From contig NZAU01000103.1 of NCBI GenBank assembly GCA_002686215.1, positions 12,546-19,197 of the forward strand: a stretch of 6,652 nt of DNA. Reading direction: 5' to 3'. Origin of the DNA: Candidatus Woesearchaeota archaeon (GTDB lineage: Archaea; Nanoarchaeota; Nanoarchaeia; UBA10117; ARS21). This document shows positions 1,012-6,652 of this stretch, one piece after another. Position 1 is the stretch's first letter; each line of letters starts with the position of its first letter. The position numbers were made by a program, and so were the translations under genes. The notes beneath the pieces were generated by a model. The model had not been told where the DNA came from. It saw only the letters and a list, made by a program, of their open reading frames with translations, and did not search any database.

Positions 1012-1017
1012 TAAATA
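1010..1017 (+). promoter_or_regulatory. Putative T4-like late promoter (GATAAATA)
   Basis: GATAAATA lies across the TGA stop of the first fibre gene (1009-1011) and the 28-base gap after it. T4 late promoters have TATAAATA as their -10 element, and cyanophage late promoters are reported with close variants, so this fits apart from its first base. Transcription would start about 6-7 bases downstream, leaving a leader of about 16-17 bases before the ATG at 1040. That leader contains GAAGG at 1022-1026, a possible ribosome binding site with slightly long spacing. No other equally good copy was found in the window. The short AT-rich motif could occur by chance, but its position in the only gap supports it. 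Confidence 0.5.
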
Positions 1018-1039: not shown

Positions 1040-2437
1040 ATGTCCCAACTTAATGTAGATAGAGTAGTTTCTTTAAGTGGTGGTGGCGGAACGGCACAAT
1101 TCCAACTGGAATCTAGTGGCAATTTTAACTTTGATTCGGGCACGCTGTATGTCGATAGTGCGAATAACGAAGTTGGTATTAACACTACAAATCCGCGATC
1201 AAACTTAGATATTGCTGGAACGGGTAGTGTTGTTGTTCCTGTTGGAACGACTGCACAGCGCCCTGGAGCACCCGTAGAGGGTATGTTCCGATATAATTCA
1301 GAAGAACGACAGTTTGAGGGATATTCCTTAAATAGTGGAACTAATCAGGTTGAATGGGGTGCTATTGCTGGCGCTGGTGGTGGAGGAACACCTCAACAAT
1401 CTACAGATAGATATAGCAATGACTATTCTGTTGGTGCTGTTCTTAAATCTGACGGAACTGAAGCATATTGGTCTTTTGAAGGTGTCCTAAGTGATTGGGG
1501 CATGGCAAGAATTTGGACCCATGGATATGTTGGTGGTGGGTATCAAAGTGGTTCGCCATGGAGAAACGTGAACAGAACTGTTCATGCTACAGATACATCA
1601 ACAAACTTAGGTGATACTCTCGATAGATCTGGTGCTTATATGGCAGGATCTTTCCATGATACTAGACACTTCTTCCACTCTATGGAGAACACTTATAGAG
1701 GTTCTTCTAACTATACGTCTGGTTTCAGTATGACCTCCGAATCTGGTATCACCCACCAGAACTCTTGGGATATGACTGTAAACCGTGCATCAATGGGTTC
1801 ATTCCAAGACTACATTTTTGCAGGCGGTTATTCTTATCTACAGGGTGGTGGTAACGCTAGAACTGATGCATTTAATCTCTCTACAGAGGTTATGAGAACG
1901 TCTGGATTCCCTCCTAACCATGGTGATGGTGGTGATGACCCCACATGGGGTGGTAACTCTAGAACAAAAGGATGGTATAAGCGTTCTGGCACACGTCAAG
2001 GATTCACTTGGAAGACTGAATCTTGGGTTACTTGGAACCATGGACCTGGTGGTGATGGATGGAAGAAAATCCTCGGTACTATGTTAGGTCACATGTATGT
2101 TGGAACTGGTAACAACGCACAGAATGGTAATCAAAAGTGTGATGATACAACAGGTATTCAGGTTAGAGGTTTGAACTTCGGTAATATGGGTGAGGAAAAC
2201 TTTGAAATTGGAATGAGAAAAGGTTATTGCTTGGGTAACTATAATGGTGCTCAGAATAATAATACCTTCAAGGTGAACTATGCAACCGATGGTCACACAA
2301 ACCTTGGTGGATCTTCACCTCCGTCTGGTCATGGTGGTATGAGTTCTGCTCACTGCTCCTCTGCATCTGCTGTATCGGGTGTTAACACCGATGGTTCTCA
2401 GGCATACAATTACGGCACAACTATTCCTAACTTCTGA
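1040..2437 (+). CDS. Tail-fibre-like protein with kelch-like repeat head
   Basis: Probable phage tail-fibre or receptor-binding protein of 465 residues, complete. The N-terminus MSQLNVDRVV resembles the start of the preceding fibre. Residues 44-60 (EVGINTTNPRSNLDIAG) match the 'VGIGTT.P...LDV.G' motif common in phage fibres and S74-type tail proteins. Residues 66-109 repeat the PVGTT..RP module of the first fibre, then comes a glycine linker (GAGAGGGG-like, 108-117). The remaining 345 or so residues are rich in Gly, Asn, Ser, Thr, Trp and His. They show recurring aromatic-glycine strand starts at about residues 163 (YVGGGY), 200 (YMAGSF), 258 (YIFAGGY), 313, 353 (YVGTGN) and 396 (YCLGNY), 37-58 residues apart, as in kelch-type beta-propellers. 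The stop TGA overlaps the next ATG by one base. The role is inferred from architecture; the propeller is a hypothesis. Confidence 0.82.
   Translation: MSQLNVDRVVSLSGGGGTAQFQLESSGNFNFDSGTLYVDSANNEVGINTTNPRSNLDIAGTGSVVVPVGTTAQRPGAPVEGMFRYNSEERQFEGYSLNSGTNQVEWGAIAGAGGGGTPQQSTDRYSNDYSVGAVLKSDGTEAYWSFEGVLSDWGMARIWTHGYVGGGYQSGSPWRNVNRTVHATDTSTNLGDTLDRSGAYMAGSFHDTRHFFHSMENTYRGSSNYTSGFSMTSESGITHQNSWDMTVNRASMGSFQDYIFAGGYSYLQGGGNARTDAFNLSTEVMRTSGFPPNHGDGGDDPTWGGNSRTKGWYKRSGTRQGFTWKTESWVTWNHGPGGDGWKKILGTMLGHMYVGTGNNAQNGNQKCDDTTGIQVRGLNFGNMGEENFEIGMRKGYCLGNYNGAQNNNTFKVNYATDGHTNLGGSSPPSGHGGMSSAHCSSASAVSGVNTDGSQAYNYGTTIPNF
1235..1366 (+). repeat. Fibre module copy 2 (PVGTT..RP..PV.GM.R.N)
   Basis: This is the second copy of the module at 112-225, here as residues 66-109 of the second fibre. 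The shared core is PVGTTA.RP, PV.GM.R.NS and EGY, ending in W. This copy carries a small insertion (SLNSGTNQVE) before the closing tryptophan. The two genes probably arose by duplication followed by head replacement. Confidence 0.75.
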
Positions 2438-3192
2438 TGGCAACTACTAATCCCGATATTATCGTTCTCGATGAAGAGAAATGGTCTCAGATTAAAATCT
2501 GGGGTAGGAGAATTGGTGACTTCTTAGGTCTAGAAGTCTATGAATTGGAAGATCAATATTTTGATTACATTCCTCAATACATCAATTATCTTAGATTTGA
2601 TTACAAGACTGGCACCTTTGGTCATAAGTACTGGGGTGAATACAGATCAGAAAGATCTGAGTATGGTGAGAATGAAGAAGGAACTACACAGAAAGATAAA
2701 GTATCAGTTGATTCTACTCTTCAGCAGAAATATACACTGCCTTTCATGAAGCAAGTAATTACATTGGCAGTGCAAGAAGTATTTGAAAAAAGATATCAAT
2801 CACTCCGTGCTACATATAGTAGTCTTGAAGATGCAACGTGGGGAGACCAACTTGCAGAATCTCAAGCATATTTGGCAGACAGTGATCACGAAACCAAGTT
2901 AATTCATAGGTTAGCAGAACTTCGTGGGTTGACAACTGAACAGTTTGCTGGTAAAGTTGTCGAGAAGCAGGGTGAGTGGAAAGGCAAACTTTTTGATCTC
3001 GCCGTGGCAGAACAAACGTTGATTGTTAAATTGAAAGCAATCACAAATGTCGCTGATGCCAATGTATTCCTAGAAGATTACTTCGGAATATCAATGTCAA
3101 ATCAACAATGTCTAAATTACGGTAGGTGTATTGAAAATGAAGACGGACTCATCGTCAGAAAAGAACCTTTTAAGTACGGAATTAGATTCTGA
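2437..3192 (+). CDS. Unrecognised phage protein with tail-associated helical segment
   Basis: I do not recognise this 251-residue protein as a named family. Residues 1-75 are acidic and aromatic-rich (ELEDQYFDYIPQYINYLRFDYKTGTFGHKYWGEY). Residues 133-217 form a predicted helical stretch (TWGDQLAESQAYLAD, LAELRGLTTEQFAGKV, then an AEQTLIVKLKAI helix). This resembles the 'W..Q..EA.AY..D.....L..LA..RG.T...LA.KV' pattern in various phage tail-associated or tail-fibre-assembly proteins. It has no signal peptide or membrane segment. The start ATG overlaps the fibre stop (TGATG) with no clear ribosome binding site, pointing to translational coupling with the fibre gene. A tail-fibre chaperone or minor virion protein is the most reasonable inference from position; the sequence does not prove it. 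Confidence 0.7.
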   Translation: MATTNPDIIVLDEEKWSQIKIWGRRIGDFLGLEVYELEDQYFDYIPQYINYLRFDYKTGTFGHKYWGEYRSERSEYGENEEGTTQKDKVSVDSTLQQKYTLPFMKQVITLAVQEVFEKRYQSLRATYSSLEDATWGDQLAESQAYLADSDHETKLIHRLAELRGLTTEQFAGKVVEKQGEWKGKLFDLAVAEQTLIVKLKAITNVADANVFLEDYFGISMSNQQCLNYGRCIENEDGLIVRKEPFKYGIRF

Positions 3193-4018
3193 GAGACTGC
3201 CTTTATCTAAAACAATCGAAGACCTAGAGAACATTGATCCCTGGGTCTTATCTGATTTTGATGAAGGACTGGTCGGGTGGAGTGATTCTCAATTCTTTGG
3301 TCAAACTGATTATCAAAACAAATATTTTGTTGTCAACTCACAGGTGACACCTTGGCGTCAAATGCGTCAAGCAATTATGGAGATCCAGACGCGATTAAAT
3401 GCTCTCCAGAAAGTAACCATTTCATATAAGCGAACACTCAACGATATCGCTAGAATTCGTCATGAAATGGAGACTGAGGAAGATCCATATTACAAGCAAG
3501 ATAAAGAATATGAAATCGAGATTTTGCTTCTCGATAAACAAGTATGGCACAACAAACTGCGTCAGTGTAAGAGGGAGATTGAAGGTCTGTTGCGTATCAT
3601 CAAAGAGCGCACAGGAGAGAATGTCGATCTCGAAGATCTGGAAGTATTGAAAGAAACTATTCTCGCTAAAGAGAATGAGGAAGGTGAAGAGATTAAGTAT
3701 TGGATTGCTCGTTTAGCAAAACAATGCTCTATCGATCTTCTCACCACTGGTAGGATTCAAGCAGGCAATCTAGATAGTATGCTTATGATGAGTCCTGAAG
3801 ATCAAGCAGCAGTGACTGATCTGGCAATGACATATTCTACTGCTATGAATATCAATGTCGGCAAGATTAAAGCAGCAGCAGAAGATAAAGTAGAGAATAT
3901 GTTAAAAGGTCAAGGACCTCAAATGTTTGATACCGCTGGAGTACTAACTGATTATGCAAACAACAACGTTGAAGACCGCTATCTTCAGTCTGCCGATAAA
4001 TCCGAAACTGGATCTTGA
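3137..4018 (+). CDS. Unrecognised coiled-coil protein, probable structural or assembly protein
   Basis: A 293-residue protein of unknown function. I chose the ATG at 3137 over the in-frame TTG at 3131 because GGTAGGTG (3121-3128) gives an SD-like site with normal spacing to the ATG. The gene overlaps the preceding one by 56 bases. The N-terminal 70 residues are acidic and include an aromatic patch (DPWVLSDFDEGLVGWSDSQFFG). Residues of about 73-195 are charged and helical (MRQAIMEIQTRLNALQK, YEIEILLLDKQVWHNKL, CKREIEGLL), as in a long coiled coil. A second Ala/Met-rich helical region follows (SPEDQAAVTDLAMTYSTAMN, about 219-238). There is no membrane segment or catalytic motif. It closes the block that begins with the fibres, and a terminator-like hairpin lies 8 bases after its stop, which supports a virion or assembly role by context only. 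Confidence 0.72.
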   Translation: MKTDSSSEKNLLSTELDSERLPLSKTIEDLENIDPWVLSDFDEGLVGWSDSQFFGQTDYQNKYFVVNSQVTPWRQMRQAIMEIQTRLNALQKVTISYKRTLNDIARIRHEMETEEDPYYKQDKEYEIEILLLDKQVWHNKLRQCKREIEGLLRIIKERTGENVDLEDLEVLKETILAKENEEGEEIKYWIARLAKQCSIDLLTTGRIQAGNLDSMLMMSPEDQAAVTDLAMTYSTAMNINVGKIKAAAEDKVENMLKGQGPQMFDTAGVLTDYANNNVEDRYLQSADKSETGS

Positions 4019-5675
4019 TTACATTGAGGAAGGGTTAATCCCCTTCCTTTTGCAGAATCAACATCTAATTTACGATTTATATTTCACATCTAGGATGCCA
4101 CCATTCTCGCAAGATGCGATGGGTGATGTGTTTCGTTCGGAGACAGATGCACAGCAAGTTGCTATCAATGCTCTAGTAATTGGTGAGAAGACTGGTATTC
4201 CCCTGTCTGCCACTTTTAATAACATCTGGGTGCGTCCAGATCAAAAGAACTTAGATGAGTTTATTAAGAACTTTAAGTTCTTGTATGATGCTGGTGTTAG
4301 GACTGCAACTATTCCTCACACATCATGGGTGATGACAGGACAAATTCAAAAGGAATATCCTGAACTAAAGATCAAGAACACTATTCTTCGTGAGGTAGTC
4401 AAACCTAACGAGATTGTCACTCTTGCTAGTGCTGGATTCAATTATATCAATCTGGATCGTGATATTATGCGAGACAGAGAGGCATTGGATCGTATCAAAC
4501 AAGCAAAAGAATATTGTGCGGAGAAAGGTAATCCTGTAGAGTTGTCATTACTTGCTAATGAACATTGTTGGGGTGGTTGTCCTATCATGCCTGAACATTA
4601 TCAGTACAACAGCACACGACAGGGAACAGAACCGCAATACTTCAATAGTGAGATCAGTCGTATTTCATGTTCACGATGGGATGCAGTTGATCCTGCACAT
4701 GAACTTAAGGTCGCTAATCTTCCCCCATGGAAGAGTGATTGGAAAGAGTTCTTAGATGTTATTGACGTATTCAAACTGCATGGCAGAGAAGATACTATGC
4801 GACTATTAGAGTCCATGGATCTTATTAAGCGATGGGATGATCCCACTTGTAGTTTAATGTATCCTGAGTTTAAGGATTACATGCAGGATGTTGATATGCC
4901 TGATGCTCCTATCAACAAATGGCGTGAAAAGATCAAGACATGTAAGTTTGACTGTTGGGATTGTAACTATTGCGAAACTGTGGTAGAATTCCGACTGAAG
5001 AAACAAAAACGTGAAATGAATCCTCTGGTAGATAGAGTCATCCGTGCCATTGATAATGCTGTGGACGATAACTCCAACTTCAAACCCGATGGGTATAATG
5101 TTCTTGGTCTATCTTCTAACAAGGTTAGACATTTCTTGAACAATCTATGTTCTGAGCGTGGTACAATCTATGCAGATGTTGGTTGTTACACAGGCAGCAC
5201 ATTGTTTGCTGCATTGATGGGTAATGAGTCAGTAAAAGCATATGCTATTGATGACTTCTCTGAAGGATGTATTCGTCCTAAAAATAAGAATCTGTTTGAC
5301 AAATATACCATTGATAATCCTATCGATGAGTTTATTCAGAACGCTGAGAAGTATTTCAATACAGATTGTTCGGTTGGTTTCTGTGTTAAACCTATCTTAC
5401 AGATGGAGTTTAATCCTGAGTTCAAACCTAACGTTATCTTCTATGATGCAGAGATTGAAGACAATATGATTCCCAACTTGGAACATATTCACAATCAAGC
5501 AGCAGATTCATATATTCTGGTTGTTGATGACGCAAACTTCAATGGTGCTGTTGATAATGCAAAAGAATTCTTGAAGGGTAAAGATGTTGTTTATGACAGA
5601 ATTATCAGGACAGAGATTGTAGAAGATGAGAAGGATTGGTGGAATGGTTTGTATATCGCAGTCATTGAAAAATGA
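3954..5675 (+). CDS. U32-peptidase-like domain fused to class I SAM methyltransferase
   Basis: A 573-residue two-domain protein. The N-terminal part (about 1-345) resembles the U32 barrel family. It opens with a strand (TAIFSLPIN), has YDLYFTSRMPP at 40-50, FNYINLDRDIMRDREALDRI at about 162-181, and the signature NEHCWGGCP....H at 202-215 (compare U32 'N..C...CP.R..H'). Cysteines 205, 209, 239, 330, 334, 337 and 340 could hold iron-sulfur clusters; the last four form C-x3-C-x2-C-x2-C. The C-terminal part (about 355-573) is a Rossmann methyltransferase: motif I DVGCYTG (408-414), AIDDFSEG (431-438), FYDAE (496-500) and VVDDANF (523-529), a pattern like TylF/caffeoyl-CoA O-methyltransferases. 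The ATG at 3954 is preferred because the residues before the next ATG (4095) fit the family fold and a GGAG lies 12 bases upstream. It overlaps the previous gene by 65 bases. The methyltransferase fold is firm; U32 relatedness is likely; the substrate is unknown. Confidence 0.82.
   Translation: MQTTTLKTAIFSLPINPKLDLDYIEEGLIPFLLQNQHLIYDLYFTSRMPPFSQDAMGDVFRSETDAQQVAINALVIGEKTGIPLSATFNNIWVRPDQKNLDEFIKNFKFLYDAGVRTATIPHTSWVMTGQIQKEYPELKIKNTILREVVKPNEIVTLASAGFNYINLDRDIMRDREALDRIKQAKEYCAEKGNPVELSLLANEHCWGGCPIMPEHYQYNSTRQGTEPQYFNSEISRISCSRWDAVDPAHELKVANLPPWKSDWKEFLDVIDVFKLHGREDTMRLLESMDLIKRWDDPTCSLMYPEFKDYMQDVDMPDAPINKWREKIKTCKFDCWDCNYCETVVEFRLKKQKREMNPLVDRVIRAIDNAVDDNSNFKPDGYNVLGLSSNKVRHFLNNLCSERGTIYADVGCYTGSTLFAALMGNESVKAYAIDDFSEGCIRPKNKNLFDKYTIDNPIDEFIQNAEKYFNTDCSVGFCVKPILQMEFNPEFKPNVIFYDAEIEDNMIPNLEHIHNQAADSYILVVDDANFNGAVDNAKEFLKGKDVVYDRIIRTEIVEDEKDWWNGLYIAVIEK
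4027..4051 (+). terminator. Putative intrinsic terminator inside the next gene's 5' coding region
   Basis: A perfect 8-bp stem (AGGAAGGG at 4027-4034 with CCCTTCCT at 4041-4048) encloses a 6-base loop (TTAATC) and is followed by a T run whose first T closes the stem (4048-4051). It begins 8 bases after the stop of the coiled-coil gene, where a structural-operon terminator would be expected. It lies within codons 25-33 of the U32-methyltransferase frame. The T tract is short, so termination may be partial. Confidence 0.6.
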
Positions 5676-6169
5676 TCAACATTATTGATAATTACTTACC
5701 TGAACAAACATATCATAACATCCGTAATCAGATGTTAGCATTTAATTTCCCTTGGTTTAGTTCAAAGATTGTCAATGATAGTCCTCAGAACTACAAGAGA
5801 AATGTTCAAATGATTCATATGTTTTATACGAATCATGCACCACAGACAGATCATTTGGAGATCATTTATCCAGTACTCGATAAGATTCAACCCCTGTCGA
5901 TCATAAAGATCAAAGCAAACTTTATGACAGGTACAGATCGTATCATTGAACATGGACTACATAATGATATCACAGAGGCAGAAGATCGCCCTTATATTAA
6001 GACATCGATCTATTATCTGAACACCTGTGATGGTTACACAATGTTTGAAGATGGCACTAAAGTAGAAAGTGTCGGCAATAGATTTGTAGAGTTTCCTAAC
6101 TCAATGAGGCACACAGGAACATCTACAACTGATGAATATCGTATGGTTTTGAATCTAAATTATGTTTGA
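5672..6169 (+). CDS. 2-oxoglutarate/Fe(II)-dependent dioxygenase
   Basis: A compact 165-residue 2OG-Fe(II) oxygenase, a cytosolic enzyme type that hydroxylates or oxidises a substrate using O2 and 2-oxoglutarate. It opens with MINIIDNYLPEQ.Y, the usual N-terminal helix entry of short phage and bacterial members. The iron-binding triad is visible: H97-N98-D99 (HxD) and distal H147 in SMRHTGTS, with R157 ten residues later for the 2-oxoglutarate carboxylate (YRMVLNLNYV). YIKTSIYYLN (about 110-119) and GYTMFEDG (about 123-130) match the core strands before the distal His. All key residues are present, so it is likely active. Start and upstream stop overlap as ATGA with no strong ribosome binding site, indicating translational coupling to the U32-methyltransferase gene. 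Such oxygenases are common in T4-like cyanophages, usually with unknown substrates; nothing here fixes this one's. Confidence 0.88.
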   Translation: MINIIDNYLPEQTYHNIRNQMLAFNFPWFSSKIVNDSPQNYKRNVQMIHMFYTNHAPQTDHLEIIYPVLDKIQPLSIIKIKANFMTGTDRIIEHGLHNDITEAEDRPYIKTSIYYLNTCDGYTMFEDGTKVESVGNRFVEFPNSMRHTGTSTTDEYRMVLNLNYV

Positions 6170-6652
6170 ATCTATCCTAAAAAATGAACTCTATATGGGT
6201 TACATTTTCGGTATCATGATCTTGGGTGGTTTCATCCGTGATTACCGTGCATTAGAAGATGTATATTCTCTTGCTAAAAAATATATCAAGGATGCTCGTG
6301 TTCTTGTTATCCTCACCTCATTGTTAGGTGGTATTCTTCCCATCCCTGGACGTGTGGCACTATCTGCACCTCTGCTGGATGCAATCGCACCCGCTGATAA
6401 AGAGAAACGATCTGCATTTGGTGTGATTGATTATCTGTCAGTGCATCATTATTATTGGTGGAGTCCACTTGAAAAGACTGTAGTTCTGCCGATGGCAGTG
6501 ATGGGTGTGTCATATTCTACATTCCTTGGATATACTGCTATCCCACTGATTATCACCCTTGCATATACTTGGTGGTATATCTTTTCTCGTGTTCCTGCTG
6601 CATCAGTCGTACCTAATCTTGAATATGTTCGAGACTTTAATTGGCGTCGTGC
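6162..6652 (+). CDS. DUF401-like integral membrane protein (permease-like), 3'-partial
   Basis: An open frame of 163 codons running off the right edge; its ATG overlaps the oxygenase stop by 8 bases. Hydrophobic segments fall at about residues 10-25 (YMGYIFGIMILGGFI), 46-77 (VLVILTSLLGGILPIPGRV..) and 106-141 (VVLPMAVMG...LIITLAYTWWYIF), so it is a membrane protein. The sequence GGILPIPGRVALSAPLLD (57-73), followed by IDYLSVHHYYWWSPLEKTVVLP (about 89-110), resembles the 'GLLP.PGGA..SAP' and 'NYWFRH.WE..WPLYPG' motifs of DUF401 proteins, relatives of ion-transporter-superfamily permeases. The glycine pair of that motif is GR here, a difference at a key site. The match is from memory of motifs, so the family is tentative; the membrane nature is firm. 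The transported substrate, if any, is unknown. Confidence 0.75.
   Translation, partial: MFESILKNELYMGYIFGIMILGGFIRDYRALEDVYSLAKKYIKDARVLVILTSLLGGILPIPGRVALSAPLLDAIAPADKEKRSAFGVIDYLSVHHYYWWSPLEKTVVLPMAVMGVSYSTFLGYTAIPLIITLAYTWWYIFSRVPAASVVPNLEYVRDFNWRR

Follow-up and report, generated by a model that had tools for sequence, protein, structure and literature searches.

A fused U32-like barrel and O-methyltransferase protein in a fibre-gene cassette of marine cyanophages, with a possible role in virion protein modification

Enzymes of the U32 group are hydroxylases that bind a [4Fe-4S] cluster, and a requirement for prephenate has been reported for two of them, RlhA and TrhP; the word 'peptidase' in the group's name is historical. 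According to sections of PMC6747719, four-cysteine motifs are conserved in eight of ten U32 families, with CX6CX15CX3/4C recurring, and parts of PMC6599085 describe E162, C170 and C177 of TrhP as essential. The same parts describe an operon of Bacillus subtilis in which the U32 proteins TrhP1 and TrhP2 stand together with the methyltransferase TrmR, and, in Phytophthora and Phaeodactylum, a fusion of TrmR to the tRNA hydroxylase TrhO (YceA), a member of the rhodanese family (PMC6599085). Here we consider U32-MT, a protein encoded in a 6,652-nucleotide (nt) stretch of contig NZAU01000103.1 (the window, taken at its full length), in which a U32-like domain precedes an O-methyltransferase-like domain in one chain. 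The window lies within a virus record of 21,119 bases in IMG/VR. This fused two-domain architecture is near certain. We tentatively propose, with somewhat less than even confidence, that U32-MT serves a cyanophage fibre cassette as a maturation enzyme with two activities, its substrate being a virion protein of that cassette. Searches of the open-licence PMC literature listed no report of a U32-methyltransferase fusion in phages.

3954..5675, + strand: U32-MT, fused U32-like and O-methyltransferase protein, 573 residues (phrog_1458, E 5.9e-289)
3954..5009, + strand: N-domain, residues 1-352, U32-like TIM barrel with a C-terminal cysteine tail (fold prediction, profile alignments)
5061..5672, + strand: C-domain, residues 370-573, COMT/TylF-like O-methyltransferase fold (fold prediction; PF13578 in relatives)

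Distribution and conservation of the fusion

The window is closely related to Synechococcus phage Syn19 (Kyanoviridae, Pontusvirus), whose Syn19_046 ('hypothetical protein, T4-like GC 354') is 98.8% identical to the open reading frame (ORF) at 3954-5675. The function label of phrog_1458, the PHROGs family of U32-MT, is unknown, and the protein is recorded as hypothetical in the cultured cyanophages Syn19, P-SSM4 and S-RIM2. Matches occur in 123 of 50,697 phage-collection records, every one covering at least 80% of the query, and 1935 protein matches were found at E <= 1e-3. Annotated examples cover seven phage genera, and U32-MT is common in marine viral contigs, where a protein-alignment scan with N-domain patterns gave 563 confirmed stretches. 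Kinship is close in part, with S-RIM2 or S-RIM12 isolates making up 52 of 60 among the matches listed.

Loci were drawn from the protein-alignment scan (the best 80 of 563, ranked by whole-protein match), from a DNA pattern for the CWGGCP stretch, and from named phages. Among 128 complete and distinct ORFs bearing the N-domain, 127 also possess the C-domain, and the fusion is kept in 86 of 87 loci found from the N-domain DNA pattern alone, which involves no ranking by the C-domain. The sole exception is a 169-residue piece on contig L146, where a further U32-MT piece, read in a second frame, overlaps it. PHROGs also includes an N-only family, phrog_36869. A chimera or frameshift artefact was rejected, given the recurrence of the fusion across the seven genera and these ORFs. 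The fused protein had first been noticed in a reading of the window's letters without database searches (the sequence-only reading), and predicted folds and one-chain conservation show that observation to be real. U32-MT is a putative oxidation-methylation fusion, common in marine cyanophages, that carries no functional annotation.

The long start of U32-MT is correct, because residues F11-K18 are nearly invariant among 44 full-length relatives (picked from the 120 matches listed, with lengths of 540-600 residues and identity below 85%) and, in the structural model, form strand one of the barrel. The annotated start of the homologues in P-SSM4, P-RSM1, P-RSM3 and S-CAM4 lies about 50 residues too late, and the first barrel strand is lost.

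Fold and conserved residues of the two domains

The sequence-only reading had assigned the first half of the protein to U32, and a fold search with the N-domain returned a U32-type TIM barrel, with Mk0906 (5d88) as the best match. Structures of RlhA, TrhP and UbiU/V were absent from the fold-search lists, which is not evidence of difference. The U32 profile PF01136 did not bear out the assignment: it gave no match in the window's U32-MT at E <= 1, nor in the 44 relatives at E <= 0.01, and no Pfam domain at all, RNA-binding ones included, scored on the window's protein. Against stand-alone relatives that do bear PF01136, the N-domain aligned with an hhalign probability of 92.7 and a pairwise E of 4e-7 (94.4 and 9e-8 in a second alignment). 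Sequence searches of the PDB with full-length U32-MT, the N-domain, the C-domain, TrhP and the neighbouring protein B returned nothing, and those with neighbours D and E (all three introduced below) and with the U32 protein of phage EcS1 returned chance-level matches only. A peptidase role was also considered and rejected, there being no sign of proteolysis and the U32 name being historical.

Residue invariance was counted over 113 aligned rows, in which C-domain identity to the window's copy falls as low as 29%. The positions of interest are as follows.

4566..4670, + strand: cysteine group I, putative metal or iron-sulfur (Fe-S) site, C205, C209 (H215) and C239 (invariant in 113 of 113 rows)
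4770..4787, + strand: FKLHGR, residues 273-278, counterpart of FKIEGR/LKIEGR/VKIEGR in RlhA, TrhP and UbiU
4941..4973, + strand: cysteine group II, putative second Fe-S or zinc site, C330-x3-C334-x2-C337-x2-C340 (invariant in 113 of 113 rows)
5169..5201, + strand: S-adenosylmethionine (SAM) motif I region, residues 406-416 (Y406, G410 and G414 invariant; D or E at 408)
5445..5447, + strand: D498, first acidic residue of a putative metal triad (invariant in 113 of 113 rows)
5526..5531, + strand: D525-D526, remainder of the putative metal triad (invariant in 113 of 113 rows)

All eight cysteines, C188 included, are kept in every row, and H215 is invariant, as are K274, G277 and R278 of the FKLHGR stretch. 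The two cysteines of the U32-style signature in the sequence-only reading (C205-WGG-C209-P, then a histidine) are among these residues. The spacing within group I is C205-x3-C209-x29-C239, which departs from the CX6CX15CX3/4C motif of classical U32 proteins. Membership of the classical family is less secure than the sequence-only reading suggests: the fold agrees with it, the PF01136 score and the four-cysteine spacing do not, and the essential motif glutamate, to which we return below, is seemingly absent. U32-MT probably acts in the manner of a U32 protein or derives from one, but because neither the profile score nor the classical spacing is found, we do not file it as a plain U32 member. 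The CX3CX2C stretch at C330-C337 was considered as a radical-SAM site and rejected, since it lies after the barrel and not after the barrel's first strand.

The intact Rossmann methyltransferase that had been read in the second half was recovered by fold search: the C-domain has the Rossmann SAM fold of the COMT/TylF group, with TrmR among its matches, at 9-18% identity to the solved methyltransferases. PF13578 scores in 22 of 36 and 29 of 44 relatives but not on the window's own copy, and TylF (PF05711) scores on one relative. D498, D525 and D526 may correspond to the metal ligands of COMT and NovP. Enzymes of the COMT/TylF type bind two neighbouring oxygens through Mg2+.

Because a U32-fold barrel with cysteine sites precedes a COMT-like domain, the protein's layout suggests oxidation followed by O-methylation of an aromatic group. 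In this scenario, the barrel's two invariant cysteine groups would accommodate one or two Fe-S sites (or one Fe-S and one zinc site), and an aromatic or comparable group would be oxidised (hydroxylated) by the N-domain. The C-domain, as a metal-dependent COMT/TylF-type enzyme, would then methylate the newly made hydroxyl, and two-oxygen binding through Mg2+ would fit a catechol-like product of the first hydroxylation.

The fibre cassette and the candidate substrates

U32-MT is encoded among the following features.

1012..1017, + strand: TAAATA, T4-late-promoter-like, 28 nt before the start of B (motif search; position conserved)
1040..2437, + strand: B, fibre-type protein (phrog_1417, 'sericin 1 precursor-like'), variable N-terminal anchor and propeller-like body (PHROGs, alignment)
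2437..3192, + strand: C, cassette protein of unknown function, phrog_1604 (PHROGs, locus survey)
3131..4018, + strand: D, cassette protein of unknown function, phrog_1409 (PHROGs, locus survey)
5672..6169, + strand: E, 2-oxoglutarate-Fe(II)-oxygenase-like protein, labelled 'endonuclease V' (PF13640 in 9 of 15 aligned relatives)

The gene order is B-(C)-D-U32-MT, with U32-MT closing the cassette. D, whose start is a mechanical TTG (the Syn19 record begins a few bases later), overlaps the start of U32-MT by 65 nt, and the body of B is probably propeller-like, judging from repeats in its alignment. B and D were each found in 71, and C in 62, of the 72 loci (among 112) that have 3 kilobases (kb) of sequence upstream. 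A reciprocal survey from D covered the best 80 of its 394 relatives, which are nearer relatives and overlap the first locus set; there U32-MT was the next gene in all 71 loci with 1 kb downstream, and B was present in all 58 with 2.5 kb upstream. GC 351-352-353-354 are consecutive in P-HM2 and P-SSM4. One contig (L154, IMGVR_UViG_3300020478_000062, 2317-12877) holds two diverged B-D-U32-MT-E copies, and another (L167, IMGVR_UViG_3300006024_000107) holds a second cassette and the end of a first.

Within the phage collection, D and the B body each occur in 123 records, the same number as U32-MT, and C in 115. The visible organism counts are also equal for the B body, D and U32-MT, and the equal counts lead us to take the three record sets as identical. 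For scale, among records with an organism name starting in Synechococcus, Cyanophage or Prochlorococcus, 458 carry gp6 (E <= 1e-30). A full-length B query reached 142 records; of the 60 matches listed, eight are not full-length and are confined to the initial 58 or 59 residues of B.

The T4 late promoter has TAAATA as its core. Of 79 distinct sequences upstream of B, 53 contain it within 60 nt of the start (in 37 cases at 28-31 nt), against a mean of 9.2 and a maximum of 18 in 200 shuffles. With the first methionine of every stop-to-stop ORF taken as the gene start, it was far rarer before U32-MT (2 of 117), C (0 of 74), D (10 of 101) and E (0 of 46), and was found before 19 of 49 copies of the fibre gene preceding B. 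Neither TAAATA in the whole window (2 versus 5.7 expected) nor CTAAATA in the Syn19 stretch (4 versus 6.6 expected) is enriched overall. The picture is of one late transcription unit that may begin at or before B.

The location of the gene among fibre genes points to a virion protein as the substrate. It would most likely be a protein of the same cassette, B foremost, where Tyr168 and Tyr200 are candidate residues, both invariant across 28 diverse B sequences. We infer the Fe-S binding, hydroxylation, methylation, metal use and substrate of U32-MT, whereas the two predicted folds, the conservation of the fusion, the invariant residues, the gene order and co-occurrence, and the late-promoter-like element ahead of B are computed results. 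It is possible, if doubtful, that U32-MT is the first U32-type protein-modifying enzyme, converting a fibre residue (for example, tyrosine to 3-methoxytyrosine via a 3,4-dihydroxyphenylalanine-like intermediate), with a single fused chain carrying out a maturation step dedicated to a fibre or receptor-binding cassette.

Several points weigh against modification of a cassette protein. The characterised U32 enzymes in the literature examined act on RNA or quinone, none on protein, and direct pairwise profile comparisons of the N-domain with E. coli U32 proteins are weak (E 0.006 for TrhP, 0.02 for UbiU, 0.3 for RlhA and 0.45 for UbiV). Co-occurrence partly reflects shared descent, given the share of S-RIM2 and S-RIM12 among the rows listed, and in S-ShM2, the lone exception for B and D among the 72 loci, B-C-D lies about 5.7 kb from U32-MT. 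The invariant tyrosines of B may be structural instead, D or C rather than B could be the substrate, and E follows U32-MT in 28 of the 61 loci with 3 kb downstream, under half. With C205 set by eye on C170 of TrhP, E162 lands at or beside Ser198, which is invariant in the A3 alignment; E203, nearby, is also invariant. As the glutamate essential in TrhP and RlhA is seemingly replaced by Ser198, the chemistry may differ or be lost.

This last point, the loss of the classical cysteine spacing and the strict linkage to fibre genes would also suit a catalytically altered or inactive protein that contributes to the fibre structurally or as a chaperone of its assembly. We consider this quite unlikely, since the putative metal triad, the SAM-motif glycines and the eight cysteines are invariant over 113 diverged rows, which argues for retained catalysis.

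Hydroxylation and then methylation in one chain, as the sequence-only reading had it, is plausible, with the TrhO-TrmR fusion described in parts of PMC6599085 as precedent. RNA, to which that reading pointed by analogy while treating a glycan or small molecule as equally open, is not supported as the leading substrate. An RNA hypermodification enzyme would use the barrel to hydroxylate a pyrimidine at C5, like TrhP or RlhA, and the C-domain to methylate it, like TrmR, leaving a base resembling 5-methoxyuridine in host or phage tRNA or rRNA. The need for U32 enzymes that act on RNA in pyrimidine C5 hydroxylation and the TrhP1/P2-TrmR operon (both from parts of PMC6599085) are in its favour, as are TrmR among the C-domain matches and six tRNA matches in Syn19. 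We nevertheless judge it unlikely: U32-MT is tied to fibre genes, co-occurs with the cassette members and stands with a late-type promoter, no RNA-binding domain scores on it, and it is present in S-ShM2 with one tRNA match and in P-RSM3 with none. P-RSM3 led us to reject phage tRNA as an obligatory substrate; host RNA could still serve.

Rather unlikely, too, is a role of U32-MT in producing or altering a sugar or small molecule with which the fibre or host surface is decorated, with the methyltransferase acting on that glycan. TylF is known for sugar methylation, and the TylF match in one relative, the PF13578 matches, and the nucleotidyltransferase and thymidylate-synthase-like genes (in T4-like phages) or PF00793 gene (in one case) that adjoin stand-alone U32 relatives all lend themselves to this. 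The cyanophage stretches examined contain no annotated glycosyltransferase, however; S-ShM2 has a 'gnd' dehydrogenase, and a cytidyltransferase 8 kb away.

The same thymidylate-synthase homologue next to phrog_5757 relatives in T4-like phages could point to DNA, with a pyrimidine of phage DNA or of the nucleotide pool being hydroxylated and methylated. Shewanella phage Thanatos, whose DNA contains pentose-modified cytosine according to parts of PMC12838424, carries a phrog_5757-type protein. Yet in Mosigvirus, as portions of PMC13390438 describe, 5-hydroxy-deoxycytidine monophosphate is the product of a thymidylate-synthase homologue, which makes a U32 enzyme dispensable for that step. Within the cyanophage sequence examined, U32-MT lies among fibre and hypothetical genes, the cytosine methyltransferase of P-RSM3 being about 6 kb away. 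We regard DNA as a very improbable substrate.

If modification of a fibre protein were true, U32 chemistry would extend from RNA and quinones to proteins, phage fibre assembly would gain a post-translational step, and a poorly understood class of Fe-S hydroxylases would gain a defined substrate. Even with another substrate, U32-MT would be a naturally occurring oxidation-methylation fusion amenable to expression and assay.

Gene E looks like a second oxidase in some cassettes. Syn19, P-SSM4 and PHROGs (phrog_274) call it 'DNA endonuclease V (denV)', and three genes bear an endonuclease V label within a 41.7 kb stretch of Syn19. For E this label looks wrong, because relatives score PF13640 with an invariant HxD...H (H97, D99 and H147 in 15 aligned relatives), although PF13640 fails to score on the window's own copy. 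The gene cut by the window end (6162-6650) matches DUF401 (PF04165) at E 1.2e-6, with 28.6 bits against a 24-bit cut-off.

Comparison with known systems

The nearest relatives found for the N-domain are the phrog_5757 'peptidase' proteins of Tevenvirinae (EcS1 and Yersinia, Serratia and Klebsiella phages), a protein of phage Thanatos (TH1_065, a stand-alone phrog_5757-type U32 protein) and metagenomic 'PrtC-like' proteins. The 'peptidase' labels look like database transfers. PMC12838424 reports models of TH1_057-065, and the words 'peptidase' and 'U32' do not occur in its text. U32-MT and the phrog_5757 group have in common NE-x-C, a cysteine equivalent to C239, F-K-x-x-G-R and a closing four-cysteine tail. 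C205, C209 (H215) and C239 align, partly by eye, with C196, C207 (C213) and C237 of the stand-alone relatives, and the C330-C340 tail corresponds to C344/C349/C353/C356 of the EcS1 protein. Unlike U32-MT, the phrog_5757 proteins stand alone (about 360-390 residues) and score PF01136; identity in profile alignments is 24-29%. Their genes adjoin thymidylate-synthase-like and nucleotidyltransferase genes in the two T4-like enterophages examined.

A scan of genome contigs for stand-alone U32 relatives gave two bacterial loci, and a neighbour scan (10 of 91 predicted) was uninformative. In a BRC1 bacterium (L264, 3816-5144), the gene two upstream of the U32 relative scores as guanylate kinase and methyltransferase. 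One stand-alone relative adjoins a gene of the DAHP synthetase I family, PF00793.

RlhA, TrhP and UbiU/UbiV resemble U32-MT in the TIM barrel and in a site rich in cysteines that follows the strand ahead of C205, and all but UbiV share the F/L/V-K-x-x-G-R stretch. U32-MT differs from them in its unscored PF01136, its C-x3-C-x29-C spacing, its second four-cysteine tail, its fused methyltransferase and its fibre context. TrhP1/TrhP2 and TrmR likewise pair a hydroxylase with a COMT-like O-methyltransferase, but as separate genes and with an RNA substrate. The TrhO-TrmR fusion places hydroxylase and methyltransferase in one gene, as U32-MT does, but its rhodanese-family TrhO is not a U32 protein and its substrate is RNA. 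Finally, the COMT, TylF and Methyltransf_24 enzymes share with the C-domain the Rossmann fold and the SAM-motif glycines, and possibly the acidic positions of the presumed metal triad, whereas in U32-MT this domain is fused behind a barrel.

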